Below are positions 15,310-30,344 of a stretch of DNA of 64,000 bases, in pieces; position 1 is the first letter of the stretch, and each line of letters begins with the position of its first letter. The notes beneath the pieces were generated by a model that saw only the letters and a list, made by a program, of their open reading frames with translations, did not search any database and was not told the origin of the DNA. The DNA comes from Hyphomicrobiales bacterium (GTDB lineage: Bacteria > Pseudomonadota > Alphaproteobacteria > Rhizobiales > Rhizobiaceae). Location: the NCBI GenBank assembly GCA_900473175.1, contig UCKM01000015.1, positions 186,001 through 250,000 of the forward strand, in the 5' to 3' direction. The position numbers and the translations under genes were made by a program.

Positions 15310-15331
15310 CTAATCTATCCCATGATGTAAT

Positions 15332-15371
15332 CTATCATTCTTTTATATCAGCTGCTGATGGAAAATGATAG
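15332..15371. promoter_or_regulatory. Candidate LacI-family operator pair between LacI gene and mocD-like gene
   Basis: CTATCATT (15332-15339) and its exact complement AATGATAG (15364-15371) face each other across 24 bp. A smaller palindrome ATCAGCTGCTGAT lies between them at 15347-15359. The region is the only control region for the divergent LacI and mocD-like genes. Confidence 0.5.
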
Positions 15372-15474
15372 AATTTTGTCATCCTTGATTGAGGCTGGTT
15401 GCGCCGGGGCGTACTATCCGGCCAATCACCGGAAGGGATTACCCAGCCGTTGCACGATCAGGGAGGTCTCGTGA

Positions 15475-16578
15475 ATGAACATAGTGTCGCTCGCTGCACC
15501 GACGAAGAGGGATTACAGCCTTATTGGCCGGGATTCGCGTTTGGCCGTCGAGACCGGCCTGTCGGCGGCTGAGTGGTATCACACCGACATTGCGCGCAAA
15601 CAGATGAAAGAGCTGATGAAACGCTCGGATGGCCCGGCCATTCGCGATACGGCAATCTGGCTCGGCAGCATGGTGATCCTGGCCGGTTTCGGCATCTATT
15701 TCTGGGGGTCCTGGCTGTGTGTACCCTTCTTCATCGCCTACGGCGTCCTTTATGGCTCGGCATCGGACAGCCGCTGGCACGAATGCGGCCATGGCACCGC
15801 GTTCAAGACGCGCTGGATGAACGATGCGGTTTACGAGATCGCCTGCTTCATGATCATGCGCAATCCCATTACTTGGCGCTGGAGCCATACGCGCCATCAC
15901 ACAGATACTGTCATCGTCGGTCGTGACCCCGAAATCACCGTGATGCGCCCACCGGATCTGGTGCGCCTTGTGCTGAATTTCTTCGGCATTCTCGACGTCT
16001 GGCATGCGATGAACGATCTTGTCCGCAATACACTTGGTATTGTCAGCGCGGAGGAAAAGACCTTCATTCCCGAACAGGAACAGCCGAAGGTCGTGCTGAT
16101 TGCCCGCATCTGGGCCGCAATCTACCTCGCAACCATCGCCCTTGCGATTTACATGGGCTCGATCCTGCCGCTCGTGCTCGTCGGCCTGCCGCGCCTCTAT
16201 GGCGCCTGGCACCACGTCATGACCGGCCTGTTGCAGCATGGTGGCCTTGCGGACAACGTAACCGATCACCGGCTCAACAGCCGCACCGTCCATATGAACC
16301 CGGTGAGTCGCTTTATCTACTGGAACATGAACTACCACGTGGAGCATCACATGTTCCCGATGGTGCCCTATCACGCGCTGCCGCAGCTACATGCGATGAT
16401 CAAGCATGACCTGCCACAGGCGAACCCGTCCATTTTGGATGGATACCGCGAAATGATCCCTGCGTTCATTCGCCAGTTGCGCAACGAGGATTATTACCTC
16501 AAGCGCGAATTGCCGCCAACAGCCAAGCCTTACCGCGAGGAATTTCACAGCGAACGCCTCGCCGCCGCAGCACAATAA
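15475..16578 (+). CDS. mocD: MocD-like membrane di-iron oxygenase (fatty-acid desaturase superfamily)
   Basis: A 367-residue membrane protein with the three histidine boxes of the desaturase/hydroxylase superfamily: HECGHG (near residue 102), HTRHH (near 138) and HVEHH (near 288). Hydrophobic segments lie near 55-95 and 200-225. The boxes bind a di-iron centre. In the rhizopine system MocD with MocE and MocF is the oxygenase for O-demethylation of 3-O-methyl-scyllo-inosamine. A GGGAGG site precedes the start. It is followed at 31 bp by a MocE-type Rieske ferredoxin and then a reductase, the same order as mocDEF. The substrate could be another O-methyl inositol; a simple fatty-acid desaturase is less likely given the operon. 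Confidence 0.8.
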   Translation: MNIVSLAAPTKRDYSLIGRDSRLAVETGLSAAEWYHTDIARKQMKELMKRSDGPAIRDTAIWLGSMVILAGFGIYFWGSWLCVPFFIAYGVLYGSASDSRWHECGHGTAFKTRWMNDAVYEIACFMIMRNPITWRWSHTRHHTDTVIVGRDPEITVMRPPDLVRLVLNFFGILDVWHAMNDLVRNTLGIVSAEEKTFIPEQEQPKVVLIARIWAAIYLATIALAIYMGSILPLVLVGLPRLYGAWHHVMTGLLQHGGLADNVTDHRLNSRTVHMNPVSRFIYWNMNYHVEHHMFPMVPYHALPQLHAMIKHDLPQANPSILDGYREMIPAFIRQLRNEDYYLKRELPPTAKPYREEFHSERLAAAAQ

Positions 16579-16609
16579 AATCAAAAGAACCAATCGGGAG
16601 GATTGAATC

Positions 16610-16924
16610 ATGAGCAACTGGATAGAGGCCTGCACCTCCGATGACATTGATGAAGAGGACGTCATGCGCTTTGATCACGCCGGACGCACCTTCGCGATCT
16701 ATCGCAGCCCGGATGACGAATTCTTCGCTACGGATGGCCTTTGCACCCATGAACATATTCACCTCGCCGATGGGCTGGTCATGGATGAAATTATCGAATG
16801 CCCCAAGCATAATGGCCGGTTCAACTACAGAACCGGTGAGGCCAAGGGTGCACCCGTCTGCGTCAATCTCAAGACCTATCCGGTCAAGGTCGAGGCCGGC
16901 AAAGTCCTCATCCAGCTCGGTTGA
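16610..16924 (+). CDS. mocE: MocE-family Rieske [2Fe-2S] ferredoxin
   Basis: A 104-residue single-domain Rieske protein. The cluster ligands are Cys-x-His in CTHEHIHLADG (near residue 44) and Cys-x2-His in ECPKHNGRF (near 64). Size and spacing match MocE-type ferredoxins, which pass electrons to the membrane oxygenase. The GGGAGGA site and start at 16610 are good. The stop codon abuts the reductase gene, so the two are probably translationally coupled. Confidence 0.9.
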   Translation: MSNWIEACTSDDIDEEDVMRFDHAGRTFAIYRSPDDEFFATDGLCTHEHIHLADGLVMDEIIECPKHNGRFNYRTGEAKGAPVCVNLKTYPVKVEAGKVLIQLG

Positions 16925-16929
16925 CTGCG

Positions 16930-18162
16930 ATGGCGAGCGGTATGGTCATCATTGGAGCTGGCGAATGCGGGGCACGCGCGGCCCTTGCCCTGCGTGAGAA
17001 TGGCTATCAGGGAACGGTCACGCTGATCGGCACGGAGCAGCACCTGCCCTATGAACGCCCACCCTTGTCGAAGGAGGCCATGGTTTCGGACGAACATCCG
17101 TTGCCACGGACGATCGCGGGCAGCGAGCAGTTCACTGAGAAACAAATTGATTTCATCGGCAGTTCAACAGTTGTGGCGATCGATCGGCCTGCGAAAGGCC
17201 TGATCCTCGAGGATAGCAGCCGGGTCTCCTACGATCGGCTGCTGATCGCGACCGGCGCGCTTCCACGCGCACTTCCGCTTGCATCCGGCAGCAGGCATTG
17301 CGTCACGCTGCGCAGTTATGATGATGCGCTGGCCATTCGCGCCCGCTTTCGTCCAGGCGCACGCGTTGTCATCGTCGGCGGCGGCTTCATCGGCTTGGAA
17401 CTCGCGGCAAGCGCGCGCAAACGCGGTGCTTCGGTAACTGTAATTGAAGCGCAACCCCGCATCATGATGCGCGGCGTCCCGGAGGAAATTGCCGAAGTCA
17501 TCGCGGAGAGACACCGGCAAGAGGGCGTGGTGCTGCAATGCGGCACTGGAATCTCGTCTATCGAAGACACTTCTGGCCATGTCACGATCGCGCTGGCAAA
17601 CGGCGAAGCCATCGAAGCTGATCTTGCGGTCATCGGCATTGGCGCCGTACCCGTCACGGCATTGGCGGAAGCAGCCGGTCTCGACACCGCCAATGGCATT
17701 GTCGTCAATGCGTGGTTGCAGACCAGTGATCCCGATATCTTTGCCGCAGGCGACTGTTGCGCCTTTCCGCTGGCCATCTATGGCGGGCGGCGGGTGCGGC
17801 TCGAAGCCTGGCGCAATGCGCAGGAACAGGGAGCGCTTGCGGCGCGAAACATGCTGGGAGCGCAAGAACCGCACGAGGCAGTCCCATGGTTCTGGTCGGA
17901 TCAGTACGAGCTCGGCCTGCAGGTGGCAGGTCTTGCCGACGAAGCTGCGCACACGATACGCCGCGATCTTGGGAACCGAGCCTTCATCCTCTTCCACCTC
18001 GCGGCTGACGGAAGGCTCGTTGCGGCCAGCGGCATCGGCCCGGGCAACGCTGTTGCCAAGGATATTCGGCTTGCGGAGATGCTGATTGCACGTAGTGCCA
18101 GGCCGGACCCGATCCAACTGGCGGCATCCGACGTCAAACTCAAATCGCTCCTCGCAGCCTGA
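16930..18162 (+). CDS. mocF: MocF-like FAD/NAD(P)H ferredoxin reductase
   Basis: A 410-residue pyridine nucleotide-disulphide oxidoreductase family protein with two dinucleotide-binding motifs (VIIGAGECGARAALAL near residue 6 for FAD; VVIVGGGFIGLELAAS near 146 for NAD(P)H), the family segment YERPPLSK near 42 and the FAD-contact DPDIFAAGDCCAFP near 265. The C-terminal reductase domain is present. Start is taken as the ATG at 16930, 5 nt after the mocE stop; a second ATG at 16942 is possible. It would reduce the MocE ferredoxin with NAD(P)H, completing the MocD oxygenase chain. Confidence 0.85.
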   Translation: MASGMVIIGAGECGARAALALRENGYQGTVTLIGTEQHLPYERPPLSKEAMVSDEHPLPRTIAGSEQFTEKQIDFIGSSTVVAIDRPAKGLILEDSSRVSYDRLLIATGALPRALPLASGSRHCVTLRSYDDALAIRARFRPGARVVIVGGGFIGLELAASARKRGASVTVIEAQPRIMMRGVPEEIAEVIAERHRQEGVVLQCGTGISSIEDTSGHVTIALANGEAIEADLAVIGIGAVPVTALAEAAGLDTANGIVVNAWLQTSDPDIFAAGDCCAFPLAIYGGRRVRLEAWRNAQEQGALAARNMLGAQEPHEAVPWFWSDQYELGLQVAGLADEAAHTIRRDLGNRAFILFHLAADGRLVAASGIGPGNAVAKDIRLAEMLIARSARPDPIQLAASDVKLKSLLAA

Positions 18163-18174
18163 AAGGGACAGATC

Positions 18175-18972
18175 ATGCCCGGCCTGCGCCCCACCGTGGC
18201 GGATATCCTTGCACTCAAGGGCCGTCGCCAATTGACGATGCTGCGTGTCGAAACGCTGGACGAAGCCGAAGCGGCGGAACGGGCCCGTGTCGATATGCTT
18301 TCGGTGCCGCCTGGGCTGCTGACGCCTGAGTTCCGTGACGCGGCCCCCACGGCATTTACCGTGCCGGGCCTCGAATATGGTGATTTCATTACCGCTGAGG
18401 ACTATTTGCGGGCAGCATTCAAGGCACTGCGCGCCGGCGGCGATGCGGTCTATTGCGCCGCGAGCCTTGGTATCATACGGCGTATGCGCGACGAGGGCAT
18501 TCCCGTGTGCGGCCATGTTGGGCTCATACCGTCCAAGGCGACCTGGACGGGCGGCTTCAAGGCGGTTGGCAAGACCGCGCAGAGCGCACTGGAGATCTGG
18601 CGCCAGACCAAGGCGCTGGAAGAGGCAGGAGCCTTTGCCGCGGAGATTGAGGTGGTTCCCGCCGACGTCGCCTCGGCAATTTGTGAACGCACCTCCCTGT
18701 TCATGATTTCCATGGGCGCGGGCGCTGGTTGCGACGCGCAATATCTGTTTGCAACCGACGTTCTTGGTGCAAATCGCGGCCACTATCCGCGCCATGCCAA
18801 GGTCTATCGCAACTTCAACCTCGAATATGACCGCCTGCATCAGGAACGGATCGCGGCCTTTGCCGAGTTTGTCGCAGATGTGCACACGCAAAACTATCCG
18901 GGACCCGAACATAAAGTCGGAATCTCGCGTGAAGAACTCGATCGTTTCCTGAAAGAGCTTCCTGAAGTTTAG
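18175..18972 (+). CDS. Divergent PanB-superfamily protein (ketopantoate hydroxymethyltransferase-like)
   Basis: A 265-residue protein whose C-terminal two-thirds align by eye with PanB: CGHVGLIPSK (PanB GHLGLTP, keeping the His), LEEAGAFAAEIEVVP (keeping the catalytic-type Glu) and ISMGAGAGCDAQYL (PanB IGIGAG). The N-terminal half is different. The Mg-binding Asp of PanB VGDSLGM is replaced by the MLSVPPGLL segment, the second Asp of LADLPF by FTVPGLEY, and the KIEGG motif by YCAASLG. Normal ketopantoate synthesis is therefore unlikely. It starts 12 bp after mocF with an AAGGGA site, the last gene of the mocDEF-like operon. I infer a role in the C1 unit or product of O-demethylation. Products called 3-methyl-2-oxobutanoate hydroxymethyltransferase would be over-annotation. 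Confidence 0.75.
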   Translation: MPGLRPTVADILALKGRRQLTMLRVETLDEAEAAERARVDMLSVPPGLLTPEFRDAAPTAFTVPGLEYGDFITAEDYLRAAFKALRAGGDAVYCAASLGIIRRMRDEGIPVCGHVGLIPSKATWTGGFKAVGKTAQSALEIWRQTKALEEAGAFAAEIEVVPADVASAICERTSLFMISMGAGAGCDAQYLFATDVLGANRGHYPRHAKVYRNFNLEYDRLHQERIAAFAEFVADVHTQNYPGPEHKVGISREELDRFLKELPEV

Positions 18973-19265
18973 TGCCTTTGTTGCTCAGTTTGTTCTGACG
19001 GGCAGATTTGGTTCAAGCCCCAAGATCGATGTCGTGCCATCACCGGTGCGTTTCAAAACCTGCAACCCGCTACGAATGGCTAATTGCCAACTTGGTTCGA
19101 TGGTGTAGCTTAATTTCGCAATCGCACAAAACGTTGCGATAAGCATTGAAAATATGTTGCTTAATTTCAATACCGGCAGTGAGAAAGTGCGCGACCAAAA
19201 GCTAGGTGGGCGCACCCGACGGCCAAATAATTTTTCATATTATCAATTACTTAATGGAGCTCCGT

Positions 19266-21461
19266 GTGAAAAAGATACTTCTTGCTACGCTCGCACTATC
19301 GCTGGGTACCTCCATGCTTTCTGGCTGCGACGATTCTGATAAGGGCGGCGCAACCTCGACATTTTCCGATTTGCAAGATCAGATCAAAAGCTTGCAGGGG
19401 CAGTTGTACAAGCAGACGAACGACCGCAACGAACTGCAGGCAAGTATAGCTGCACTCGGACAAGCCGTGGACAGCAAACCCTCGGTAGACCCCCAGAGCA
19501 TCAAGGGCATCAGCGAGCGCCTAGCGTCCTTGGAAAAAACGCTAGAAACGAAGGCCGATAAGTCGGCGACCGGATCAGAAGTCGAAAACGTGAAATCCAA
19601 GCTTGCAGCGTTGACCCAGGAAGTTCAATCGAAACCTTCCATCGATCCGGCGCTGATCCAAAGTATCTCAGACCAGCTAACCATCCTCGAAAAACTCATC
19701 GATGCGAAGGCCGATAAACCAGTGGCCAGCCAATGCGACGATCCCGCCTTCGATGACAGCGATGCCATCAATACGGCGCTGACCGCTCCCTCGGTTCCGT
19801 CCAGCTTTCCACCGCTCGTGCCGGTGCCCACATATGGAACGGTATCGGCTGGGCAAACCATCAATCTGACACCCGACGCAATTATCTTGACCCGGGGCAA
19901 CGACATCAAGCTTCCTGTTGCTGCCAATTATTTGCAGACCCGGTTGAAGACAGCGACGAGCTTCCAACTACCGATTAACCCCTACAGCCCGACCAGTACG
20001 CCTTGTGTAAAACTCGAAATAAAGCCCCTTAAGAGTACCGATGGAAAGCAGGTCGGGCCTGAGGGATACTCGCTAGTTACCGCGAAGAACGGAGCCGTCA
20101 TCCGCTCATCAACTGCGAGCGGACTTTTCAACGGCATCCAGACACTCCTGCAGCTCATGCCCGCCACAGTCTATTCCAACACGATCCAGACGACCGCCTG
20201 GACCATTCCCGCAGTCAAGATCGTCGATTGGCCGCGTTTTGCCTATCGTGGCTCCATGCTCGACGTGGCCCGGCGTTTCTATGCGGTCGATGAAGTCAAA
20301 CGTTACATTGATGAAATCGCCCTGCTCAAGATCAACACATTGCATATGCACCTGACGGATGATCAGGGCTGGCGCATCGCCATCGACGAATTGCCGGAAT
20401 TGACCACTATCGGCGGGACAACCCAAAGCGGGTTCGCTTCAAAGCCAGAGAACCTTTGGTTCTATAGCCGGGCCCAATACAACGACATCGTTGCCTATGC
20501 CGCATCGCGATTCATTACCATCGTTCCGGAGATCGACGGTCCGGGTCATTCCCTCGCGGCGCAAGCGTCGATTGCGAACCTTAACTGCAACAACACGAAG
20601 CACTCATCCTATTCCGGTTTCGATGTAGGCAACCCGACCATATGTCTCGACGACCCGGCACATATAGACAACGCGAAAACCTACCTTAACACCGTACTAA
20701 CCAGTCTGGCGGCGCTGACACCCGGGCCATACATCCACATCGGCGGCGATGAAGCGCCGGGGATGACGCCGGCAAAAATGTCGGCCTACGTCGATGCGGC
20801 AGCAGCGCCTGCTGCGAAAGCAAAGAAGCTGCTCATGGGCTGGCATCAGATTGCGCAGGGCACCTTGCCCGCCGGGTCCGTGCTCCAATACTGGGGCGAC
20901 GAAAGCTATAGCCAAACCATTGGCACTACATCCGAAGACAAAAACATTGGTGAGGTTCGAAGCGGTCTGGCACAGGGAGCGAAGTTCGTCATGTCGCCCG
21001 CCGACCATGCCTATCTCGATATGAAATACGACACGACAACTACCTACGGCCTGACGTGGGAAGGTACGGTGAGCGTTGCGAAGTCGTATGATTGGGATCC
21101 GACGACGAAACTCGCGTCCGTTGATGGCAACACAAGACTGCTGACGGACAACAACGTGCTCGGCGTCGAAGCGCCACTTTGGACCGACCGCGCTTTCACC
21201 AACAGCCTGAGCTCCTCACTGCCAAGCGGACCCAACCCACGCTTCGTAGCACCAACGCTTTACACCGATTATATGGCATTCCCGCGCCTGGCATCAGTGG
21301 CCGAGATCGGCTGGTCGCCCTATGCGTCGCACTCCTGGGATGATTTCAAGATACGGCTTGGCTATCAGGGGGCGCGTTGGGACGCCTTTGGCACCGGATA
21401 TTTCAGGGCGCCGGGGATCGATTGGAAAACGCCCTCGGATCTGTTTGTAGTAAACGAATAG
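19266..21461 (+). CDS. Lipoprotein GH20-family beta-N-acetylhexosaminidase with tandem coiled-coil stalk
   Basis: A 731-residue lipoprotein: signal ending LSGC (Cys 21), then a heptad-rich stalk from about residue 33 to 150 containing two copies of a 39-residue unit (61-99 and 113-151; each ends in KADK). A GH20b domain (about 195-320) and a canonical GH20 barrel follow, with MHLTDDQGWRI near 360, IVPEIDGPGHS near 420 and the catalytic pair D495-E496 in HIGGDEAPG. I chose the GTG at 19266 because GGAG lies 6 nt upstream and the lipoprotein signal starts there. The stalk probably lifts the enzyme from the membrane. The signal sequence resembles that of the GH20 at 7774. It sits between the mocDEF-like operon and a convergent Rieske operon. 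Substrate: terminal beta-HexNAc. Confidence 0.9.
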   Translation: MKKILLATLALSLGTSMLSGCDDSDKGGATSTFSDLQDQIKSLQGQLYKQTNDRNELQASIAALGQAVDSKPSVDPQSIKGISERLASLEKTLETKADKSATGSEVENVKSKLAALTQEVQSKPSIDPALIQSISDQLTILEKLIDAKADKPVASQCDDPAFDDSDAINTALTAPSVPSSFPPLVPVPTYGTVSAGQTINLTPDAIILTRGNDIKLPVAANYLQTRLKTATSFQLPINPYSPTSTPCVKLEIKPLKSTDGKQVGPEGYSLVTAKNGAVIRSSTASGLFNGIQTLLQLMPATVYSNTIQTTAWTIPAVKIVDWPRFAYRGSMLDVARRFYAVDEVKRYIDEIALLKINTLHMHLTDDQGWRIAIDELPELTTIGGTTQSGFASKPENLWFYSRAQYNDIVAYAASRFITIVPEIDGPGHSLAAQASIANLNCNNTKHSSYSGFDVGNPTICLDDPAHIDNAKTYLNTVLTSLAALTPGPYIHIGGDEAPGMTPAKMSAYVDAAAAPAAKAKKLLMGWHQIAQGTLPAGSVLQYWGDESYSQTIGTTSEDKNIGEVRSGLAQGAKFVMSPADHAYLDMKYDTTTTYGLTWEGTVSVAKSYDWDPTTKLASVDGNTRLLTDNNVLGVEAPLWTDRAFTNSLSSSLPSGPNPRFVAPTLYTDYMAFPRLASVAEIGWSPYASHSWDDFKIRLGYQGARWDAFGTGYFRAPGIDWKTPSDLFVVNE
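19446..19718 (+). repeat. Tandem 39-codon repeat encoding coiled-coil stalk
   Basis: Two units (19446-19562 and 19602-19718) encode similar 39-residue segments; both contain SKPS(V/I)DP, a leucine heptad stretch and a terminal KADK. They are separated by 13 codons. The pattern indicates an internal duplication within the stalk of the GH20 lipoprotein. Confidence 0.75.
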
Positions 21462-21569
21462 AAATACGTGGCGCCAAGAGGCCGCAGGGGTGCGGTGAGG
21501 ATTTGTTTGAGGCGACTGTGTTACTGCGGGCCGCCCCCCGGTTGGCCCGCCCTCGGTCATAGCAAGCAG

Positions 21570-22661
21570 CTAAGCTTCCACCTCGACATTGCCGAGCGGC
21601 TTGGAGCAACAGGCCAGGATATAGCCCTCGTCGATCTCTTCGTCGAGGATGCCGCCATTGTGGTTCATGTCGACCTCTCCGGCAATTTTCATGACCTTGC
21701 AGGTGCCGCAAAGCCCCGATTCGCACGCGGCGGCAATGCGGATGCCGGCGCCACGGGCAGCCTTCAGGATCGTTTCGCCCGCGCCGCAAGGTACATCCTT
21801 GCCCGACATCGAAAATATGACCGTCGAACCCGCTTCAGCGATATCCACCGAGATGACATCCATCATCGGCAGGACCGGCTCTGCGGCGGGACCGAAGCTT
21901 TCCTGATGGTAGTGCGCCATATCGAAACCCGAGGCTTCGAGCATGGTGCGGACATCGCCCATGAAACCTTCCGGGCCACAACAGAAAATCGTCCTGTCCT
22001 TGAAGTCGGGCGCGAGCAGCGACAGCTTCGGCGCTTCTAGCCGGCCGCGAATGCCGGTCCAGACCTGTCCCATTTCGTGTTCCTTGATCAGGAAGGCGAG
22101 CTTGAGATTCGGCATGCAGCTGGTCAGATATTCGAGTTCCTTGCGGAAAATGATGTCGCTTGGACGCCGCGCACAGGTGACGAAATTGATGTCGCTCTGC
22201 GGCGCGCAATCATGCATCCACCGTGTCATCGACATCATCGGCGTGACGCCGGACCCGGCGGAAATGAAGAGATATTTTTCGCCAGGATGCTTGCGCATCG
22301 AAAATTCGCCGAGCGGGCCGAAAGCCTTGAGCCGCATGCCGGGCGTGAGGTGATCCAGCATCCAGCGGGTACCGATGCTGTCACTTTGCGCCTTGACCGT
22401 CACGGCGATGGTGAACGGCCGCGATGGGCTGGACGAAAGCGTATAGGTGCGCAAGACCGCTTCCGGCTGAACCGGCAGTTCGAAGGTCATGAACTGGCCC
22501 GGCTCGTAGCGGAACCAGTTATGATTGTCCGACCGGAAGGTGAAGGTCTTCACATCTGGCGCTTCCTCGACCATCGAGAGGCACTCCAACAGATGCAGCC
22601 GGTCGTTCCACGGCTGCATCTGGTCGAGGTGTGGGTAATTCTGAGGAACGCCCATATTCAT
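21570..22661 (-). CDS. gbcB: Rieske oxygenase reductase component (GbcB-like, FAD + [2Fe-2S])
   Basis: A 363-residue flavodoxin-reductase-type protein: FAD-binding barrel with RTYTLSSSPSRP near residue 90, NAD-binding domain with ISAGSGVTPMMSMTRW near 132, and a C-terminal plant-type [2Fe-2S] domain with Cys ligands in CESGLCGTC near 314 and a last Cys in YILACCSKP near 350. This architecture is that of GbcB, the electron-donor subunit of glycine betaine monooxygenase, and of related stachydrine/carnitine-type systems. It follows the Rieske alpha-subunit gene by 13 bp, so the two form an operon. The betaine assignment comes from family resemblance; other quaternary amines are possible. Confidence 0.8.
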   Translation of the reverse strand: MNMGVPQNYPHLDQMQPWNDRLHLLECLSMVEEAPDVKTFTFRSDNHNWFRYEPGQFMTFELPVQPEAVLRTYTLSSSPSRPFTIAVTVKAQSDSIGTRWMLDHLTPGMRLKAFGPLGEFSMRKHPGEKYLFISAGSGVTPMMSMTRWMHDCAPQSDINFVTCARRPSDIIFRKELEYLTSCMPNLKLAFLIKEHEMGQVWTGIRGRLEAPKLSLLAPDFKDRTIFCCGPEGFMGDVRTMLEASGFDMAHYHQESFGPAAEPVLPMMDVISVDIAEAGSTVIFSMSGKDVPCGAGETILKAARGAGIRIAAACESGLCGTCKVMKIAGEVDMNHNGGILDEEIDEGYILACCSKPLGNVEVEA

Positions 22662-22674
22662 TTAAGCTACCTTG

Positions 22675-23916
22675 TTAAGCTACCTTGCTGAGTTTCTTGT
22701 CGCCGGAGAGCCGCGTCTCCATTGCATTGCTGTACCATTCGAGGAACTGCAGCACGCCGCCTTCATGTTCGACCGAATAGGGGCCGGGTTCATAGGCGGG
22801 CGAGCGGATGCCGAATGCGTTTTCCTCGACAATGCGGCGATCCTGGTCATTGGTCTCAAGCCAGACATGGGTCAGTTCTTCGATATTGTAATCGACCCCT
22901 TCAACCGCATCCTTGTGGACCAGCCATTTGGTCGTGACCTGCGTCTCGTTCGGGCCGAGCGGCAGAACGCGGAAGGAAATGGCGTGATCGCCGAGAATGT
23001 GGTTCCAGGTCGTCGGATAGTGATAGAGCAGCAGCGAGCCGATATGCTTTTCATTCACCGTATCGCTGAGTTGCCGGCCGACGGCGCGCTTGCCGCTCAT
23101 CGTGTAGCTTTCCGCATCGCGCAGCAGCGGCACGCGCGTTGCCCGGTACTGACCGTCCTCGGCAATGCGGAAGACGCTTGGCAGGCCCGCAGCCTCGCAT
23201 TTGTCCCAGTGCGCAACGATTTCCGGATCATCCTTTGATCCCTGGATACCAGTGACGCTCGGCGCTTCCGGAAAGGTCTTGCAGAGTTCCGGATGATTGG
23301 CGACGCAGTGGTAACACTCGCGATTGTTTTCCCAGACGAGCTTCCAGTTGCCCTTCTCGACGATGGAGCTCTGGAACGCGACCTTCGTCTCCGTCAGGCG
23401 GTGCGGCGCAAGGTAAGGATCGAGCAGCGCGCGCGTCGGGCCGAAATCCGGAGCAACCTGTGCAAGGCAGATGAAAATATAGCCGCCTACGCTCTCGCAA
23501 TGCACCGTTTTCAAGCTGAATTGGGCGGGGTCGAAATCATCGCCCATCTGGCGTGCGAACAACAGCCGGCCGTCGAGTTCATAGGTCCATTGATGGTAGG
23601 GGCAGACGAGCTTTGCCGACGTACCCTTTTCGCCCGCACAGATGCGCGAGCCGCGATGGCGGCAGGAATTATGAAATGCGCGGATCTGGCCCTGACGGTC
23701 GCGGACGATGACGACGGGATAGTCGCCAACCTGGACGGTGAAATAATTGCCGGGCTTTGCCACTTCGCAGTCATGACCGATGAACAGCCAGTCGCGATAA
23801 TAGATGGTCTCCATCTCGAGACGGTAATAGTCCGGATCGGAATAGAAGGCCTGTTCCAGACCGTAGCCCGGTTTCCGGCCTTTGAGGTTCCGGAGAAGTT
23901 CGTTGCGAATATCCAT
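22675..23916 (-). CDS. gbcA: Rieske non-haem iron oxygenase alpha subunit (GbcA-like demethylase)
   Basis: A 413-residue ring-hydroxylating-dioxygenase-type alpha subunit. The Rieske ligands are Cys-x-His in NSCRHRGSR near residue 78 and Cys-x2-His in LVCPYHQWTY near 98. The catalytic domain has WENNRECYHCVANHPEL near 200, with the His-x4-His iron site and a Glu where aromatic dioxygenases have Asp, as in the GbcA/stachydrine demethylase group. Start is the ATG at 23916 behind GAGGACACGAC. It would remove a methyl group oxidatively (glycine betaine to dimethylglycine plus formaldehyde). A cobalamin riboswitch ends about 130 nt upstream, so the operon is probably repressed by B12. Confidence 0.82.
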   Translation of the reverse strand: MDIRNELLRNLKGRKPGYGLEQAFYSDPDYYRLEMETIYYRDWLFIGHDCEVAKPGNYFTVQVGDYPVVIVRDRQGQIRAFHNSCRHRGSRICAGEKGTSAKLVCPYHQWTYELDGRLLFARQMGDDFDPAQFSLKTVHCESVGGYIFICLAQVAPDFGPTRALLDPYLAPHRLTETKVAFQSSIVEKGNWKLVWENNRECYHCVANHPELCKTFPEAPSVTGIQGSKDDPEIVAHWDKCEAAGLPSVFRIAEDGQYRATRVPLLRDAESYTMSGKRAVGRQLSDTVNEKHIGSLLLYHYPTTWNHILGDHAISFRVLPLGPNETQVTTKWLVHKDAVEGVDYNIEELTHVWLETNDQDRRIVEENAFGIRSPAYEPGPYSVEHEGGVLQFLEWYSNAMETRLSGDKKLSKVA

Positions 23917-24017
23917 GTCGTGTCCTCGCCCTTGACGCTGCAAAGAACTGACTGGTGGTGACGGAGAAGAACGCCCGCACAGTCAACCTGCGTTGCCTGC
24001 ACAAAATCATGCTCCTT

Positions 24018-24034
24018 GATCGCCCACCGCGATC
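24018..24034 (-). other. Stem-loop downstream of cobalamin aptamer (possible expression platform)
   Basis: GATCGC and GCGATC pair across a 5-nt loop 12 nt after the end of the aptamer. AAGGAG and an ATG follow on the minus strand, with too little spacing for a normal start. The hairpin may be part of the switching structure between the aptamer and gbcA. Confidence 0.4.
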
Positions 24035-24046
24035 AGTCGGTGTTGT

Positions 24047-24227
24047 CACTTGGAGGCTGGTTTCCGGGCTCTGGAGTTGCCTTGCCGGGCTTCACGGCGC
24101 CTTCCCGGGGTGCACTCCCAGTGGCTATTTTGCCGCGTTTTACTCCACTACCGTTGCGGGGGCAGCGCCGGGTTTTTCGACCGGCTTCCCAATTCTCCGC
24201 TTCCCCTAGAAAGCGGCACCTCAAGTG
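24047..24227 (-). ncRNA. Cobalamin (B12) riboswitch aptamer
   Basis: Reading the minus strand from 24227 to 24047, the conserved blocks of the cobalamin aptamer occur in order: closing stem CACTTG, GAGGTGCC, ATTGGGAAGCCGGT, then the B12 box-like GCTGCCCCCGCAACGGTA, then CCACTGGG, GGGAAGGCGCCG, AGCCCGGAAACCAGCC, and the closing strand CAAGTG, which pairs with the first block. Length (181 nt) and order match the family. The next gene on this strand is the Rieske subunit at 23916, about 130 nt away, followed by its reductase. There is no B12 synthesis or transport gene nearby. The usual action is to turn expression off when adenosylcobalamin is plentiful. Confidence 0.93.
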
Positions 24228-24343
24228 TCCCGATAAAAGCATCCGGCTTGAAAAAAGGATAGGCGCGGAAACGACATCGCATTTACGCAAGGCGACACAA
24301 CGGCACCCGTTACATAACCCGCCCCGGGGACCTGCGGTGCGTC

Positions 24344-24361
24344 CCTCCCCAAAAGGGGAGG
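24344..24361 (-). terminator. Stem-loop after the fucose operon
   Basis: CCTCCCC and GGGGAGG with an AAAA loop lie 20 bp past the stop of the fuconate dehydratase gene. No long U tract follows, so termination strength is uncertain. It separates the fucose operon from the riboswitch-controlled operon. Confidence 0.45.
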
Positions 24362-24380
24362 AAAAGGGGCGGCCAGCACG

Positions 24381-25664
24381 TCAGGCCATGGGTCTGTGCA
24401 GATATTGTTTGATCGATTCCGGTTTCATTTCGATCGAAAAGCCGGGCAAGGACGGGGGCATATAGGCCGCATTCTGAATATTGCACGGATCGATGAAGTG
24501 CTCATGCAGGTGGTCCACATATTCGATCACCCTGCCGGCTTTGGTACCTGATACGGCAACATAGTCGATCATCGACAGATGCTGCACATATTCGCACAGG
24601 CCGACACCCCCCGCATGCGGCCATACGGGCAGATCGTATTTTGCCGCGATCAGCAGCACAGCAAGGACCTCATTGAGCCCGCCCATCCGGCAGGAATCGA
24701 TCTGCACGACGTCGATTGCGCCCTCAGCGATGAATTGCTTGAACATGATGCGGTTCTGGCACATTTCGCCGGTCGCCACTTTCACGGGGCTGATCGCCTG
24801 CCTGATCTTGCGGTGGCCGGCCACATCGTCCGGACTCGTCGGCTCCTCGATGAAGAACGGCTTGACGAAGGCAAGCTTGTTCACCCAGTCGATCGCTTCG
24901 TTGACTTCCCAGACCTGGTTGGCGTCGATCATCAGGATCCGATCGGGGCCAATGACGTCGCGGGCAATTGTCAGCCGGCGGATGTCGTCCTCAAGGTCGC
25001 GGCCAACCTTCATCTTTATGTGGTTGAAGCCAGCATCGATGGCTTCCTGGCAAAGACGCCGCAGCTTCTCGTCCGAGTAACCGAGCCAGCCGGCCGATGT
25101 CGTATAGCAGGGGTAACCTTCATCCTTCAGCTTGGCGATGCGCTCCTGCTTGCCCGTCTCGGCCCTGCGCAGGATTGCCAGCGCTTCGTCACGCGTCAAC
25201 ACATCTGTCAGGTAACGGAAATCGACTATGTTGACGATCTCCTCCGGCGTCATTTCACCGACCAGCTGCCAAACGGGTTTGCCCGCTTCCTTGGCCAAGA
25301 GATCCCATACCGCATTGACGACCGCGCCCGTTGCCAGATGCATCGCGCCCTTGTCGGGACCGATCCAGCGCAGCTGGCTGTCGCCGGTGATGAAGTGCCA
25401 GAACCGGCCCGGATTTTCTTTCACCCAATCAAGTTCGAGCCCGATGACCAGATGTTTCATCGCCTCGATGGCGAGGCAACAAATCTCGTTGCCGCGACCG
25501 ATCGTGAATGTGAGGCCATGACCCGACAGCCCATCGACGTTCGTGTCGAGCACGACATAGGCGGCCGAATAGTCCGGATCGGGGTTCATCGCATCCGACC
25601 CGTCCAGGCTTAGCGACGTGGGAAAACGAATATCGAAAACGCGAAGATCAGTGATACGGGTCAC
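24381..25664 (-). CDS. L-fuconate dehydratase (enolase superfamily)
   Basis: A 427-residue mandelate-racemase-fold protein. The catalytic pattern of fuconate dehydratases is visible: Lys-x-Lys in HIKMKVGRD near 215, metal ligands Asp in LMIDANQVW near 243, Glu in FIEEPTSPDD near 272, Glu in GEMCQNR near 300, and His in VWPHAGGVG near 350. Length and the N-terminal phrase DGSDAMNPDPDYSAAYVVL are typical of the family. The reaction is L-fuconate to 2-keto-3-deoxy-L-fuconate. It is the last gene of the fucose operon and is followed by a possible terminator. Confidence 0.9.
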   Translation of the reverse strand: MTRITDLRVFDIRFPTSLSLDGSDAMNPDPDYSAAYVVLDTNVDGLSGHGLTFTIGRGNEICCLAIEAMKHLVIGLELDWVKENPGRFWHFITGDSQLRWIGPDKGAMHLATGAVVNAVWDLLAKEAGKPVWQLVGEMTPEEIVNIVDFRYLTDVLTRDEALAILRRAETGKQERIAKLKDEGYPCYTTSAGWLGYSDEKLRRLCQEAIDAGFNHIKMKVGRDLEDDIRRLTIARDVIGPDRILMIDANQVWEVNEAIDWVNKLAFVKPFFIEEPTSPDDVAGHRKIRQAISPVKVATGEMCQNRIMFKQFIAEGAIDVVQIDSCRMGGLNEVLAVLLIAAKYDLPVWPHAGGVGLCEYVQHLSMIDYVAVSGTKAGRVIEYVDHLHEHFIDPCNIQNAAYMPPSLPGFSIEMKPESIKQYLHRPMA

Positions 25665-25704
25665 AATATGCCTCTCAAAATAATTGGGCGCGACGAAACG
25701 CTGC

Positions 25705-26550
25705 TCAAGCGTCCGCGCGCGTTACCTGCTTCTGGTTGCCAAGGCCTTCAATACCAAGCTCTACGACATCCCCCGCCTTCAAATAGCGCGGTGGCTTCAT
25801 GCCCATCCCGACGCCGGGCGGCGTGCCGGTCGAGATGATATCGCCGGGGTGCAGGCTCATGAACTGGCTCAGATACGAAACGAGGAAGGCGACGCCGTAG
25901 ACCATCGTGCGGGTCGAACCATTCTGCATGGTCTCGCCATTGACAGTCAGCCACATGCCTAGATTTTGCGGATCGGCAATCTCGTCCTTCGTCACCAGCC
26001 AGGGACCGGTCGGCCCGAAGGTGTCGCAGCTTTTGCCCTTGGTCCATTGGCCGGCGCGCTCGGTCTGGAACGCACGCTCGCTCACATCGTGAACCGTGCA
26101 ATAACCGGCGACATAGTTCAGCGCCTCGGCTTCGGTCACGTATTTGGCGGTCCGGCCGATGACGACGCCGAGTTCGACTTCCCAGTCGGTTTTCTCCGAA
26201 CCGCGCGGGATGATGAGGTCATCATTCGGGCCGACAATTGCCGAGGTTGCCTTCATGAAGATGACGGGTTCAGGCGGAACCGCCATGCCCGATTCGGCGG
26301 CATGATCGGCATAGTTGAGGCCAATGCAGATGAACTTGCCCGTCCCCGCGACACAGGGGCCTAGGCGCGGATCACCCGCTACGACGGGCAGGCTCTCAAT
26401 ATCAAGCGCGCCGATCTTGGCCAGCGCATCGGGATCAAGGACCGCGCCCGAAAGGTCGCCCACCTTCGCGGACAAATCGCGGATCTGACCCTTCGCATCG
26501 AGGACACCTGGCTTCTCCTGCCCCGGTTCGCCGTAACGTAAAAACTTCAT
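25705..26550 (-). CDS. Fumarylacetoacetate hydrolase-family protein, probable 2,4-diketo-3-deoxy-L-fuconate hydrolase
   Basis: A 281-residue FAH-family enzyme: FICIGLNYADHAAESG near residue 70, metal-binding Glu pair in DWEVELGVVIGR near 125 and DVSERAFQ near 155, and the C-terminal FAH signature ISTGTPPGVGMG near 245. In the non-phosphorylating fucose pathway such a hydrolase cleaves 2,4-diketo-3-deoxy-L-fuconate to pyruvate and lactate. Its place next to fuconate dehydratase and a KDF-type SDR dehydrogenase supports this. A general acylpyruvase role would be the alternative. Confidence 0.82.
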   Translation of the reverse strand: MKFLRYGEPGQEKPGVLDAKGQIRDLSAKVGDLSGAVLDPDALAKIGALDIESLPVVAGDPRLGPCVAGTGKFICIGLNYADHAAESGMAVPPEPVIFMKATSAIVGPNDDLIIPRGSEKTDWEVELGVVIGRTAKYVTEAEALNYVAGYCTVHDVSERAFQTERAGQWTKGKSCDTFGPTGPWLVTKDEIADPQNLGMWLTVNGETMQNGSTRTMVYGVAFLVSYLSQFMSLHPGDIISTGTPPGVGMGMKPPRYLKAGDVVELGIEGLGNQKQVTRADA

Positions 26551-26585
26551 CGTTCCATCCTTCCAAAAATTGCGGGGTGCGCCCC

Positions 26586-27320
26586 TTAGACGGTCCAGCC
26601 GCCATCGATGTTATAGGCCTGGCCCGTCGTGTATGTGGCACCAGCGAGATAGACGGCGAGATCGGCGATCTCCTCGGGCAGTCCGAGGCGGCCCATCGGC
26701 TGACGCGAGATGAACGCCGCCCGAGCTGCCTCATAGTCGCCGCCGGCACGCATACGCTGCTCAAGTGACGGGCTCTCGACGGTACCGGGGCAGATCGCAT
26801 TGCAGCGAATGCCTTGGGTAATGTAGTCGGCAGCGACAGCCTTGGTGAGACCGAGGACTGCCGCCTTTGTCACGCCATAAGCAAAGCGGTTCGGCACACC
26901 CTTCACGCTGCTGGCAACCGAAGACATGTTGACGATCGCGCCATCCTTGCGCTCGATCATTCCCGGCAGGACCGCCTTGATGGTTCGGATCATCGCCCGG
27001 ACATTGAGGTCGATGGCGAAGTCAAGATCGCTGTCTGGCATTTCGAGGATGGAGCCGCCGTGCACGAAGCCGGCGCAATTGAACAGTACATCCACGGCGC
27101 CAATTTCACCGATCACCGCGTTGACTTCATCCGCGTTCAACACGTCGAGCTTACGGGGCTTGATTGCTTCATCCTTGGGCAATGCGTCGAGCAGTTGCTG
27201 ATTGATGTCCGTCGCATGAACGATCGCACCTTCGCGGGCGAAAGCCAGCACGGAGGCGCGGCCAATGCCCTGCCCCGCAGCCGTAATGAGTACGCGCTTG
27301 CCCTCAAGCTTACCTGTCAT
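26586..27320 (-). CDS. SDR-family dehydrogenase, probable 2-keto-3-deoxy-L-fuconate dehydrogenase
   Basis: A 244-residue classical short-chain dehydrogenase: cofactor motif TAAGQGIGRA near residue 12 with an Asp at the end of the second strand (ATDINQQ, NAD preference), NCAG near 80, Ser in MSSVASS near 130 and the catalytic Tyr-x3-Lys in YGVTKAA near 145. The ATG at 27320 has a GGAG site 8 nt upstream; a TTG two codons earlier is less likely. Its sequence is of the BDH2/KDF-dehydrogenase type and it lies between the FAH hydrolase and the MaoC-like gene. Oxidation of 2-keto-3-deoxy-L-fuconate is the best inference. L-fucose dehydrogenase activity is the alternative. Confidence 0.82.
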   Translation of the reverse strand: MTGKLEGKRVLITAAGQGIGRASVLAFAREGAIVHATDINQQLLDALPKDEAIKPRKLDVLNADEVNAVIGEIGAVDVLFNCAGFVHGGSILEMPDSDLDFAIDLNVRAMIRTIKAVLPGMIERKDGAIVNMSSVASSVKGVPNRFAYGVTKAAVLGLTKAVAADYITQGIRCNAICPGTVESPSLEQRMRAGGDYEAARAAFISRQPMGRLGLPEEIADLAVYLAGATYTTGQAYNIDGGWTV

Positions 27321-27353
27321 GTTCAAATCTCCATCTGGTGCACTTGATTTTCG

Positions 27354-27809
27354 TCATGCACCTTTCACCTTGCGTTCGGCAAACAAAATATGGTCGGCGG
27401 CCAGCACCACTTCGTCGCGTTGATTGATGACTTCGCACCGTTCCACAACGCGCCCGCTGTCTGGCCGTTTCGGATCGTCTTCCTTGGCACTGATGGTGAC
27501 GCGCGTGCGGATGGTATCTCCAATGAAGACGGGTCTCACAAACCGCAGGCGGTCGTAACCATAGGAAAACGCGACGGGATTGATCAGGCTAGCGGTCAGC
27601 CCGACACCGATCGAGAAAACCATTGTGCCATGAGCGACGCGCTGGCCGAATGGCGTTGTCTTGGCAAACTCAGCATCCATGTGGTGCGGAAAGAAATCGC
27701 CCGTGTGGCCGGCGTGAACCACGAAATCGGTTTCCGTGATCGTGCGCCCCGTCGTGACACGCATGTGCCCGAGGTCATAGTCTTCGAAATAGATTGCCTG
27801 CTCAGCCAT
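27354..27809 (-). CDS. MaoC-like hot-dog fold dehydratase/hydratase
   Basis: A 151-residue MaoC-family protein with the hydratase motif (Asp in [20 protein letters not shown] and a nearby His, residues 32-50) and the following [20 protein letters not shown] segment near 57. The start at 27809 overlaps the 3' end of the upstream Gfo/Idh gene by 8 bp, so translation is coupled. MaoC enzymes hydrate enoyl-CoA or similar double bonds; no fixed step of known fucose pathways requires one. Its presence inside the fucose operon is unusual. It may handle a side product or a related sugar acid. Confidence 0.85.
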
Positions 27810-28884
27810 GCAAATTCTCCGCCATGTTGGCAAGCGGCGTCGCTGGCGCTGCGCTTGCTTGATAGGCGGCTTCGACGAGCGCCATCGTGTGCCAACCGTC
27901 TTCGACGGAACTCACCAATTCCTTATCCTCGCCGCTGGCAAAACGCTGGAGGTTGGCCATGCGGCCGATGAATGCGTCCGGAAACCAGCCGCCCTTGAGC
28001 GGCACATTCACCCAATCCGAACCGCCCTTCGGACAGATCATCAATTCGTCCGGTTCGCCGCGCGGATAGTCGAGGTTCACGCCAAGCTTCACATAGGCAG
28101 CACCCTTGGTGCCGCACAGTCTGAATTCGCAGGCCTGAAACTTGCGCCCATATTTGTGATCATGGTTGATCGACAGCGAACAACGTGTGGTGTCGCCATA
28201 ATCAAGGATCGCGCTTGTCCGCGTCTGCGCGACGCTGTGACCTGGATGGCCCAGCGTCTTGGCGTACACGCCAAGCGGATTGCCGAGGATTTGCCGGATG
28301 AGATCCAAATAATGGATTGAGTGCATGGCAATCTCGACGCGCGGCAATCCGGCAAGGAATGGCCACAGCGACCAGGGCGTATCGAGCGCCAGCCATGCAT
28401 CGAAGTCGATCACTTCGCCTAGCCAGCCTTTGGCTATCGCATCCTTGAGCGCCAGCATCATCGGCGCAAAGCGCAGCTGAAAATTGACGGCTGCAGTGAT
28501 ATTGCGCTCGCGGCAGACCCTGACGATTGCGCTGGCTTCATCAAGATCGCTGCCCATCGGCTTCTGGATCAGGGCGAACGATCCTTCAGGCAAGGCTCGC
28601 AGGACATCAACGTGCCGCGATGGCGGGGTCGCAAGATCGAAGATCGCATCTTCGACTGCCGCGGCTTCGGTGATCGATGCATAGGCGGCAGCGCCCCACC
28701 CATCGGCAAGCCTGCGGGCTTTGTCCATGTCGGGATCGAACAGTCCGGCAATTGGAAAGCCGCCCTTCCTATAGGCAGGGTAGTGCGCGTCGCCAACAAT
28801 GCTGCCGGCGCCGAAGGTCACGATTGGCCTCGGCCTCGCTGGCAAGGGCCAGCTTTGCTGCAGGGTTACGGGGTCAAAATTCAT
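27802..28884 (-). CDS. Gfo/Idh/MocA-family oxidoreductase, candidate L-fucose dehydrogenase
   Basis: A 360-residue protein with a slightly altered Rossmann motif ([16 protein letters not shown] near residue 23) and the catalytic-lysine motif written QKPMGSD rather than EKP (near 107). His residues in [12 protein letters not shown] near 185 match the C-terminal catalytic region. The cluster has no other obvious first-step sugar dehydrogenase unless the SDR fills that role, so this enzyme may oxidise the sugar at C1 to the lactone, which is the substrate of the lactonase at 35691. Its 3' end overlaps the MaoC-like gene. Confidence 0.8.
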
Positions 28885-28897
28885 TCCAAATTCCTTG

Positions 28898-29227
28898 TCA
28901 GTCGAGATGGAAGACTTCTTCCATCATCGCCCACCATTCGCCGTCACCACGGCTTTCGAGCGGCACCTGGCAGGGCATGCAGACTGCCCACCATTCCTGG
29001 TTCTTGGGGTTCGCCGCCATCTTCGCCATGTCGGCGGCAAAATCGGTGCCGTGATATTCCCAAGTGCCAAACAGGATGTTTTCCGGTTCCCGCAGAAAGA
29101 TCGTGTAGTTGCGGATGTTGCAGCTGGAAATGAGCTCAAGGACTTCCGGCCAGACGGCAGCATGCAGGCGCTTATATTCCGCCACCTTCTCGCCATTCAG
29201 CCCGATCATCATGCCCATGCGTTGCAT
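28898..29227 (-). CDS. L-rhamnose/L-fucose mutarotase family protein (RhaM-like)
   Basis: A 109-residue protein of the RhaM (DUF718) family: EYKRLHAAVWPEV near residue 17 with the active-site His, YTIFLREPENILFGTWEY near 41, and the Trp-rich WWAVCMPCQVP and WWAMMEEVFHLD C-terminus. These enzymes interconvert anomers of 6-deoxy sugars. The ATG at 29227 overlaps the end of the previous gene region by only a few bases, typical of tight packing in this operon. Anomer conversion of L-fucose before C1 oxidation fits the cluster. Confidence 0.88.
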   Translation of the reverse strand: MQRMGMMIGLNGEKVAEYKRLHAAVWPEVLELISSCNIRNYTIFLREPENILFGTWEYHGTDFAADMAKMAANPKNQEWWAVCMPCQVPLESRGDGEWWAMMEEVFHLD

Positions 29228-29231
29228 AGTG

Positions 29232-30344
29232 TCAGCACCTGATCTCGGTCGTGAACTCGTCGACGCTACGCGCCTTGACCGCGTCCCAATCCCAGTCAAT
29301 GCCGATGCCCGGCTCCGATGGTGCGACTGCATAGCCGTTTTCGATACGCATTTGCGTGTGCGTCAAATCATCGAGCTGCGGAATATACTCAACATATTTG
29401 CCGTTCTGCACCGCGCAGGTGAGACTGACATGCAGTTCCATGAGGAAATGCGGGCAGACCGGCATGTCGAACGCTTCGGCCGTATGCGCGACTTTCAACC
29501 AAGGCGTAATGCCGCCGATCCGCCCCACATCCACCTGCACGATCGAGCAGGCGCGCTTTTGCATGTATTCACGGAAATGACGGATCGAATAGAGCGACTC
29601 GCCAACCGCAACCGGCGTCTGCGTTGCAGACGAAAGCCGTACGTGGCCGTCAATATCATCGGCCGGCAAGGGCTCTTCCAGCCAGGCAAGGTCGATATCG
29701 CGCAGCACCTGCGAACGGCGGATTGCCTCGTCCAGCGTGAAGCCCTGATTGGCGTCGGTCATGATCTCAAAGCCTGAGCCAACTGCATCGCGGACCGCAG
29801 AGAGCCGGCTCAAGTCCTCGGATCCGTGCGGGCGGCCGATCTTGACCTTGGCACCCTTGAACCCCTTGGCCTGCGCCTGCAGCGCATCATCCACCAGAGC
29901 CTGCTTCTCGATGTGCAGCCATCCACCCTCGGTCGTATAGAGCGGGCAGCGGTCCTTGGCGCCGCCGGCGAGTTTCCACAGCGGCAGGTTCTGCTTTTTG
30001 GCGCGCAGGTCCCACAGGGCCGTATCGATTGCGGCAAGGGCAATGGCCGTGATTGCGCCGATCGTCGTCGCGTGCGTGGCGAATTCGAGCTCGCGCCAGA
30101 TGCCTTCGATCTGGTCCGCATCCTTGCCGAGCAGCCGGGGGGCCAGATGGTCGGAAAGCAGGCGCATCACCGATGAGCCGCCCGTCCCGATTGTATAGCT
30201 ATAGCCCGTACCAACGGCTCCATCGCTGTCGGTAATGGTGACGATCGGGGTCTCCTGACTGACGAAACTCTGGATGGCATCGGTGCGCAGTACCTTCGGA
30301 GGAAGGTCCACCATGCGCAATTCGACTCGTTCGATTGTTGCCAT
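29232..30344 (-). CDS. Mandelate racemase/muconate lactonizing enzyme-family protein
   Basis: A 370-residue second enolase-superfamily enzyme in the operon. Visible residues: Lys-x-Lys in AKVKIGRPHG near 165, metal ligands Asp in MTDANQGF near 195, Glu in WLEEPLPADD near 221 and Glu in AVGESLYS near 247, and His in VCPHFLMELH near 297. The KxK plus His pair places it in the MR subgroup, whose members are mostly acid-sugar dehydratases or epimerases. Function beyond that is unknown. It may act on a stereoisomer such as L-galactonate or on an alternative sugar taken up by the same importer. Confidence 0.85.
   Translation of the reverse strand: MATIERVELRMVDLPPKVLRTDAIQSFVSQETPIVTITDSDGAVGTGYSYTIGTGGSSVMRLLSDHLAPRLLGKDADQIEGIWRELEFATHATTIGAITAIALAAIDTALWDLRAKKQNLPLWKLAGGAKDRCPLYTTEGGWLHIEKQALVDDALQAQAKGFKGAKVKIGRPHGSEDLSRLSAVRDAVGSGFEIMTDANQGFTLDEAIRRSQVLRDIDLAWLEEPLPADDIDGHVRLSSATQTPVAVGESLYSIRHFREYMQKRACSIVQVDVGRIGGITPWLKVAHTAEAFDMPVCPHFLMELHVSLTCAVQNGKYVEYIPQLDDLTHTQMRIENGYAVAPSEPGIGIDWDWDAVKARSVDEFTTEIRC

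Follow-up and report, generated by a model that had tools for sequence, protein, structure and literature searches.

Isozymes of B12-dependent enzymes are one category of the cobalamin regulon and an established class of its targets, as stated in passages of PMC3766115. In Sinorhizobium meliloti, betaine demethylation was first attributed to Bmt and later to the cobalamin enzyme MtgBCDE, a demethylase together with a methionine synthase, according to passages of PMC12478193. The main text of that paper uses the word "riboswitch" a single time, within a reference about a glycine riboswitch, and the passages on "gbcA" name no GbcAB homologue of S. meliloti. The RNA-element table for S. meliloti in PMC2573895, which covers the chromosome only, holds three cobalamin riboswitches; the leader described here lies on pSymB in this species. 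Among open-licence full texts, a scope outside which most subscription journals lie, no paper was found that links a B12 riboswitch to a Rieske betaine demethylase. B12 elements were reportedly placed by Rodionov et al. and Vitreschak et al. in 2003 before "ardX-frdX", a pair of a dioxygenase and a ferredoxin-type protein in alphaproteobacteria. We assume that this pair may be the gbcAB-like operon treated here, and the leader may thus have been noticed at that time. To our knowledge, the 2003 reports assigned neither a function nor a B12-dependent counterpart to "ardX-frdX".

The locus lies in a window of 64 kb, by which we mean the whole stretch of DNA that was analysed (Table 1). A sequence-only reading of this DNA had described a complete B12 aptamer on the minus strand upstream of an oxygenase-reductase pair and had proposed a covariance-model score as a check. 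Both points are borne out: cmscan against Rfam returned a single match to the cobalamin riboswitch family RF00174 in the window, with 103.5 bits (gathering score 31.5), an E-value of 8.3e-25 and coverage of the full model (1-189). With the leader model R1 the aptamer reaches 188.1 bits, the window being one of the 22 source sequences of that model. The aptamer contains the blocks CTGCCCCCGCAAC, GCCACTGG and AGCCCGGAAACC as well as the CACTTG/CAAGTG stem, and is located 5' of a GbcA-like gene on the same strand, with 120 nt between its 24037 edge and the ATG at 23916. The observation is confirmed; the span originally given, 22675-24227, misses the first 11 nt of the aptamer. We propose, with a probability of roughly 0.73, that through this leader B12 switches off a B12-independent, O2-dependent betaine demethylase, the counterpart of MtgB, where the substrate and the response to B12 are what we infer.

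Binding of the ligand by the leader aptamer is to be expected, and by analogy with known cases the response would be repression rather than activation. Directly 3' of the aptamer lies a hairpin that may serve as expression platform. A hairpin with a GGTGG or GGCGG loop is the best one after the aptamer in 81 of 116 leaders, and its stems vary on both sides among leaders (GATCGC/GCGATC, GGTTGC/GCAGCC, GGCTGC/GCGGCC); no hairpin of at least five pairs was found in 8 of the 116. An intrinsic terminator was considered as the expression platform and rejected, as the conserved hairpin in the window has no trailing U run. Translational control or Rho-dependent termination would therefore be likelier. 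Folding of the whole leader was no better than that of shuffled sequences (z 0.19) and is uninformative as evidence.

Table 1 Positions in the window of the leader and of the two genes behind it
Feature	Position	Strand	Basis
Cobalamin riboswitch aptamer RF00174	24037..24238	-	covariance model
Candidate expression-platform hairpin, stem TGATCGC/GCGATCA, loop GGTGG	24017..24036	-	folding; role inferred; directly 3' of aptamer
Probable ribosome-binding site GAGGA for the oxygenase	23923..23927	-	sequence, 6 nt before ATG 23916
GbcA-like Rieske oxygenase, 413 aa from ATG	22675..23916	-	PF00355, PF00848, NCBIfam GbcA
GbcB-like FAD/NAD/2Fe-2S reductase, 363 aa	21570..22661	-	PF00970, PF00175, PF00111, NCBIfam GbcB

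The reductase ORF begins 13 nt past the stop of the oxygenase ORF, and the two genes are presumably cotranscribed. Among the 55 family loci of set 1 (see below), gbcB follows directly after gbcA in 49 and lies 245 nt away in one; in 5 of the 55 it was not found within 8 kb of gbcA. The oxygenase ORF, earlier given as 22675-23943, is real; its likely start is the ATG at 23916 behind GAGGA, not the TTG at 23943 (422 aa). According to Pfam, the oxygenase contains a Rieske domain (PF00355, 67.8 bits) and a Ring_hydroxyl_A domain (PF00848, 114.3 bits), and the domains recognized in the pair are all of the iron-sulfur, catalytic-iron, flavin or nicotinamide kind. Its best NCBIfam model is the equivalog GbcA (NF058607) with 519.9 bits, the next model following at 117.4 bits, and the best model for the reductase is the equivalog GbcB (NF058606) with 383.1 bits. 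Both equivalog cut-offs, 670 for GbcA and 500 for GbcB, are missed, and we therefore use the names GbcA-like and GbcB-like. The cut-off of 670 is also failed by a relative from Paracoccus versutus (535.3) and by the S. meliloti protein (513.8). Filing of the oxygenase as GbcA was dropped due to the unmet cut-off. The oxygenase probably demethylates a betaine; because the GbcA and GbcB cut-offs are missed, glycine betaine is the presumed substrate rather than an assigned one.

The nearest solved structures to the oxygenase are 3n0q (561.9 bits) and the ring-hydroxylating demethylase 3vca/4qup (533 bits), which we take to be the stachydrine demethylase Stc2. A reading of the oxygenase as stachydrine demethylase was considered, and the score cannot separate it (3n0q 562 vs 3vca/4qup 533, these being PDB scores only). 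It is unlikely, though conceivable, that the same off-switch and B12-sparing logic serves another quaternary amine, such as proline betaine, carnitine, gamma-butyrobetaine or a similar compound, which is also used by an MttB-family methyltransferase. The missed cut-offs, the two structures hardly separable by score and the presence of four MttB-family proteins in the window's genome would fit this alternative. Against it, GbcA is the closest NCBIfam model by a wide margin (519.9 vs 117.4 bits), and the P. versutus relative is situated within a betaine catabolic cluster. This relative, 68% identical and without the leader, is encoded on pTAV3 near a GbdR-like regulator (188.3 bits, cut-off 480), a betaine BCCT transporter (626.1 bits, cut-off 650), an FAD/GcvT-like oxidoreductase, ETF, FolD, PurU and FdhA. 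This set of neighbours is what oxidative betaine breakdown requires.

In the window itself, neither a betaine transporter nor a regulator nor a dimethylglycine gene was found with NCBIfam and Pfam among the searched neighbours of the operon. The earlier statement that B12 genes are absent nearby agrees with these searches, which gave none among the ten proteins searched at 14278-30344, the operon pair aside. At 15475-18972 on the plus strand, the window encodes an FA_desaturase-family protein, a Rieske-type ferredoxin (recognized by eye), an HcaD-like ferredoxin reductase and a PanB-like protein (101.9 bits, cut-off 207.55). A cluster like this one is found near gbcAB in locus L093 and partly in locus L005, there together with PurU. 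A large protein with a coiled-coil-like N-terminus, resembling a beta-N-acetylhexosaminidase by eye, is encoded at 19206-21461 on the plus strand.

The genome to which the window belongs (4.88 Mb, 45 contigs) encodes four MttB-family proteins, which lie below the trimethylamine methyltransferase cut-off. In one cluster, an MttB-family protein is found together with a corrinoid protein, a pterin-binding methyltransferase as MtgD would be, a betaine-homocysteine methyltransferase, a DUF1638 protein and a protein with ferredoxin-type motifs that we take by eye as a RamA-like activase. The best models for the corrinoid protein are MtgC models, with 215.4 bits (cut-off 370) and 178 bits (cut-off 310), both cut-offs being missed. 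The betaine-homocysteine methyltransferase reaches 560.6 bits (cut-off 338) and corresponds to MtgE in the naming used in passages of PMC12478193. Since the MtgC and trimethylamine methyltransferase cut-offs are missed, the names MtgB and MtgC are based on the neighbourhood as given in passages of that paper. As both an MtgBCDE-like cluster and a GbcAB-like pair are encoded in one genome, betaine methyl groups have two candidate routes in this organism, of which one needs B12 and the other does not. Elsewhere in the genome (G000:C19:46688-47890, L090), a second GbcA-like oxygenase of 40% identity with an adjoining reductase, the latter seen by eye, is encoded about 14 kb from an MttB-family gene (C19:31585-33081, L086). 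These two are possibly another oxidative/corrinoid pair for a different betaine; contig C19 carries none of the genome's four RF00174 matches.

Among the 80 matches listed from related public genomes, the closest relative of the oxygenase is that of Phyllobacterium myrsinacearum DSM 5892 with 87% protein identity; a genome from the window's own genus reaches 95%. Conservation of the leader in homologous loci, proposed as a check by the sequence-only reading, proved positive: with covariance model R1 the leader was found upstream of the gene in 53 of the 80 loci, 16 of these loci being in R1 training, and an Rfam check independent of R1 confirmed it in 16/16 of one batch. In batches that lacked the full motif by motif scan, Rfam detected the leader in 0/16 and 1/12 loci. 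R1 was built from 22 leaders (window, L005-L010, L012-L020, L071, L098, L102, L106, L122 and L125), which match by construction. Motif scans missed or half matched L102, L106, L122 and L071, which Rfam recovered, and the counts therefore rest on R1. The leader is carried by Mesorhizobium, Shinella, Aminobacter, Sinorhizobium and several Rhizobium, including pSymB of Sinorhizobium meliloti Ak57 with 185.7 bits (R1) and 100.3 bits (Rfam), and according to R1 also by Inquilinus limosus and a MAG labelled Arenimonas. It is absent from the records named R. leguminosarum, R. phaseoli, Agrobacterium tumefaciens and Brucella tritici. Leaders of gbcA score 101-211 bits with R1 and other matches in the same loci 32-79 bits, with the exception of L139; the gbcA leader therefore seems to be a riboswitch type of its own that has moved together with the gene. 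In L139, a second leader of the gbcA type (10760-10968, minus strand, 158.7 bits with R1) lies on the opposite strand and points at the 3' end of gbcB. In a survey of the class, a match at E 1e-150 was found in just 3 of 212 genomes, own genome included, and the oxygenase clade is rare outside this family in this sample of 212 genomes. In G520, from another family of the class, the gene, the leader and MtgB are all present.

The co-occurrence of leader and MtgB was counted in two sets of genomes from the family. For set 1, 151 family genomes were drawn, of which 55 have an orthologue at ≥66% identity, that is, at least 66%; G087, G095 and G001 (55-58% identity) and matches at 44-47% were not counted as orthologues. 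Family genomes with an orthologue number 187 in all, and set 2 consists of the first 100 by E-value of a further 132, a choice that leans to closer relatives. MtgB was called in set 1 from an MttB-family search, which agrees with an MtgB protein search for all 55 genomes, and in set 2 from the protein search. By R1, the leader is present in 39 of 55 genomes of set 1 (the motif scan also recovers the window and 35 others, and Rfam the remaining three) and in 77 of 100 genomes of set 2. MtgB was found in 38/39 genomes with the leader vs 1/16 without it in set 1, and in 72/77 vs 3/23 in set 2. Across both sets, comprising 155 oxygenase-bearing family genomes, MtgB is present in 110 of 116 genomes with the leader vs 4 of 39 without it, counts that are inflated by shared ancestry. 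The four genomes with MtgB and the orthologue but no leader are G099, G335, G359 and G332; G483, from another family and with 59% identity, likewise has MtgB and the gene without the leader. Each of the 16 genomes of set 1 without the leader retains one or more RF00174 matches elsewhere, and loss of the leader is therefore not a general loss of B12 sensing.

A tree of 158 proteins provides 10 independent contrasts, all on well-supported branches, in which the state of the leader differs; MtgB follows the leader in 7 of them and runs counter to it in 0 or 1 (sign test, median p 0.016, range 0.016-0.070). Taking MtgB as the leading trait gave 8 contrasts (median p 0.070, range 0.016-0.125). Set 1 alone yields 5 contrasts, too few for significance, with 4.5 on average going the same way and none opposed. 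Corrected for ancestry, the support for the link between leader and MtgB is thus modest (p 0.016-0.125). In the set of 151 genomes, 111 have any MttB-family match, the same number as have an MtgB orthologue, and co-occurrence therefore cannot tell substrates apart.

The six genomes with the leader and without MtgB form one supported clade of the protein tree (L122, L236, L238, L239, L242 and L243). Their aptamers still score 36.1-61.7 bits, above the Rfam threshold, and all six miss the B12-box heptamer [AG]CCACTG, which is missing in only 4 of the 110 genomes with both leader and MtgB. We inspected the heptamer after the exceptions were known, so that this is an observation and no planned test. 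The apparent course of events in the L122 clade is decay of the riboswitch following loss of the B12-dependent enzyme. Overall, 106 of 116 leaders retain the heptamer, and each of these 106 lies in a genome with MtgB; the table of intact leader against MtgB reads 106, 0, 8, 41, with an intact leader in none of the 41 genomes without MtgB. The idea of a B12-sparing switch, put forward from the sequence at the outset, gains support from this distribution. Activating corrinoid riboswitches have been reported (PMC10653944), and 10 of the 116 leaders are without the heptamer, which could point to an on-switch or a relic, the gene being induced by B12 or no longer responsive. We consider this very improbable, as the intact heptamer in 106 of 116 leaders, always together with MtgB, argues for selection, and an on-switch gives no reason for the link between heptamer and MtgB.

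The genes next to gbcA in relatives bear on what the riboswitch may serve. The B12-independent enzymes NrdAB, MetE or MesXD are encoded within 8 kb of gbcA in 6 of the 55 loci of set 1, and all six have the leader. NrdA and NrdB are found near gbcA in L095, L120, L135, L140 and L141, MetE in L095, L141 and L142, and MesX with MesD in L140. Nine such units are present (five nrdA, three metE, one mesX), and every one of them is preceded by a cobalamin riboswitch of its own at a distance of 10-106 nt on the same strand. MesD together with MesX carries out an oxygen-requiring, cobalamin-free methionine synthesis, as passages of PMC7857596 report. A Peripla_BP_2-like protein is encoded between nrdAB and gbcA in L120, L135 and L140.

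The window's genome has four RF00174 matches in total. The other three are located upstream of a Peripla_BP_2 protein (about 1 kb off), a nitroreductase-family protein that we take as BluB and a gene row containing CobN. Because these three precede B12-related-looking genes, the gbcAB leader looks like the sole one of the four whose target is unlike B12 supply. The same three matches could be taken to mean that the oxygenase takes part in the synthesis or remodelling of cobalamin, or in a C1 reaction supplying it, and that the riboswitch provides end-product feedback as on cob genes; a CobF-like protein, recognized by eye between nrdAB and gbcA in L135, would also fit. However, 39 of 155 orthologue genomes lack the leader and the 16 checked keep B12 riboswitches elsewhere, the state of the leader tracks MtgB, and relatives of the gene adjoin NrdAB and MetE or a betaine cluster, so that we regard feedback as highly improbable.

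Returning to the off-switch on a betaine demethylase, the arrangement suggests, as far as can be read from the genomes, that this soil bacterium keeps the enzyme switched off as long as a B12-dependent enzyme is able to take its place. With ample adenosylcobalamin, the aptamer would fold around its ligand and expression of gbcA-gbcB would go down. Betaine methyl groups would under these conditions exit via the corrinoid methyltransferase MtgB-MtgC-MtgD to tetrahydrofolate. At low B12, the switch would open, and the Rieske oxygenase and its reductase would oxidise one betaine methyl group with O2 and NAD(P)H to formaldehyde. The GbcAB-like pair would accordingly relate to MtgB as MetE does to MetH and NrdAB to NrdJ. 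We lean, by a narrow balance of probability, towards a wider rhizobial B12-famine programme of three parts, in which NrdAB would provide DNA precursors, MetE or MesXD methionine, and the GbcAB-like oxygenase would deal with betaine methyl groups. In such a programme, the supply of B12 would decide between corrinoid transfer to folate and methionine without O2 and burning to formaldehyde with O2, and where MtgB was lost, the riboswitch of the oxygenase would have decayed or vanished.

If true, the off-switch would explain how these plant-associated bacteria continue to use betaine when cobalt or B12 is short, and it would tie the supply of a vitamin to the fate of betaine carbon, the formaldehyde load and oxygen use. 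The prediction is testable in S. meliloti, where strain Ak57 has the leader and where the MtgBCDE genes are reported for the species in passages of PMC12478193.

The switch logic is known for metE and nrdAB; the physiological pairing of gbcAB with MtgB was not found described in the open-licence literature. As with the cobalamin riboswitches of metE and nrdAB, an RF00174 leader precedes a seemingly B12-free enzyme while a B12-dependent counterpart is present in the genome, and in six relatives gbcAB shares a locus with genes of this kind, all of them led by cobalamin riboswitches of their own. In contrast to these systems, the presumed target here is an N-demethylase of the Rieske type from osmolyte catabolism; one branch would oxidise the methyl group and the other transfer it, so that the branches differ in products and oxygen use. 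With GbcAB of Pseudomonas and Chromohalobacter, a glycine betaine monooxygenase whose oxidative demethylation yields dimethylglycine and formaldehyde, the pair shares a Rieske/Ring_hydroxyl_A oxygenase adjoining an FAD/NAD/2Fe-2S reductase. Unlike GbcAB, it scores under both NCBIfam equivalog cut-offs, stands behind a B12 riboswitch leader and has no betaine regulator or transporter among the searched neighbours. MtgBCDE, as described in passages of PMC12478193, is proposed to act on the same substrate, and the matching families are clustered in the window's genome; there the methyl group is transferred via cobalamin to tetrahydrofolate, whereas here it would be oxidised.
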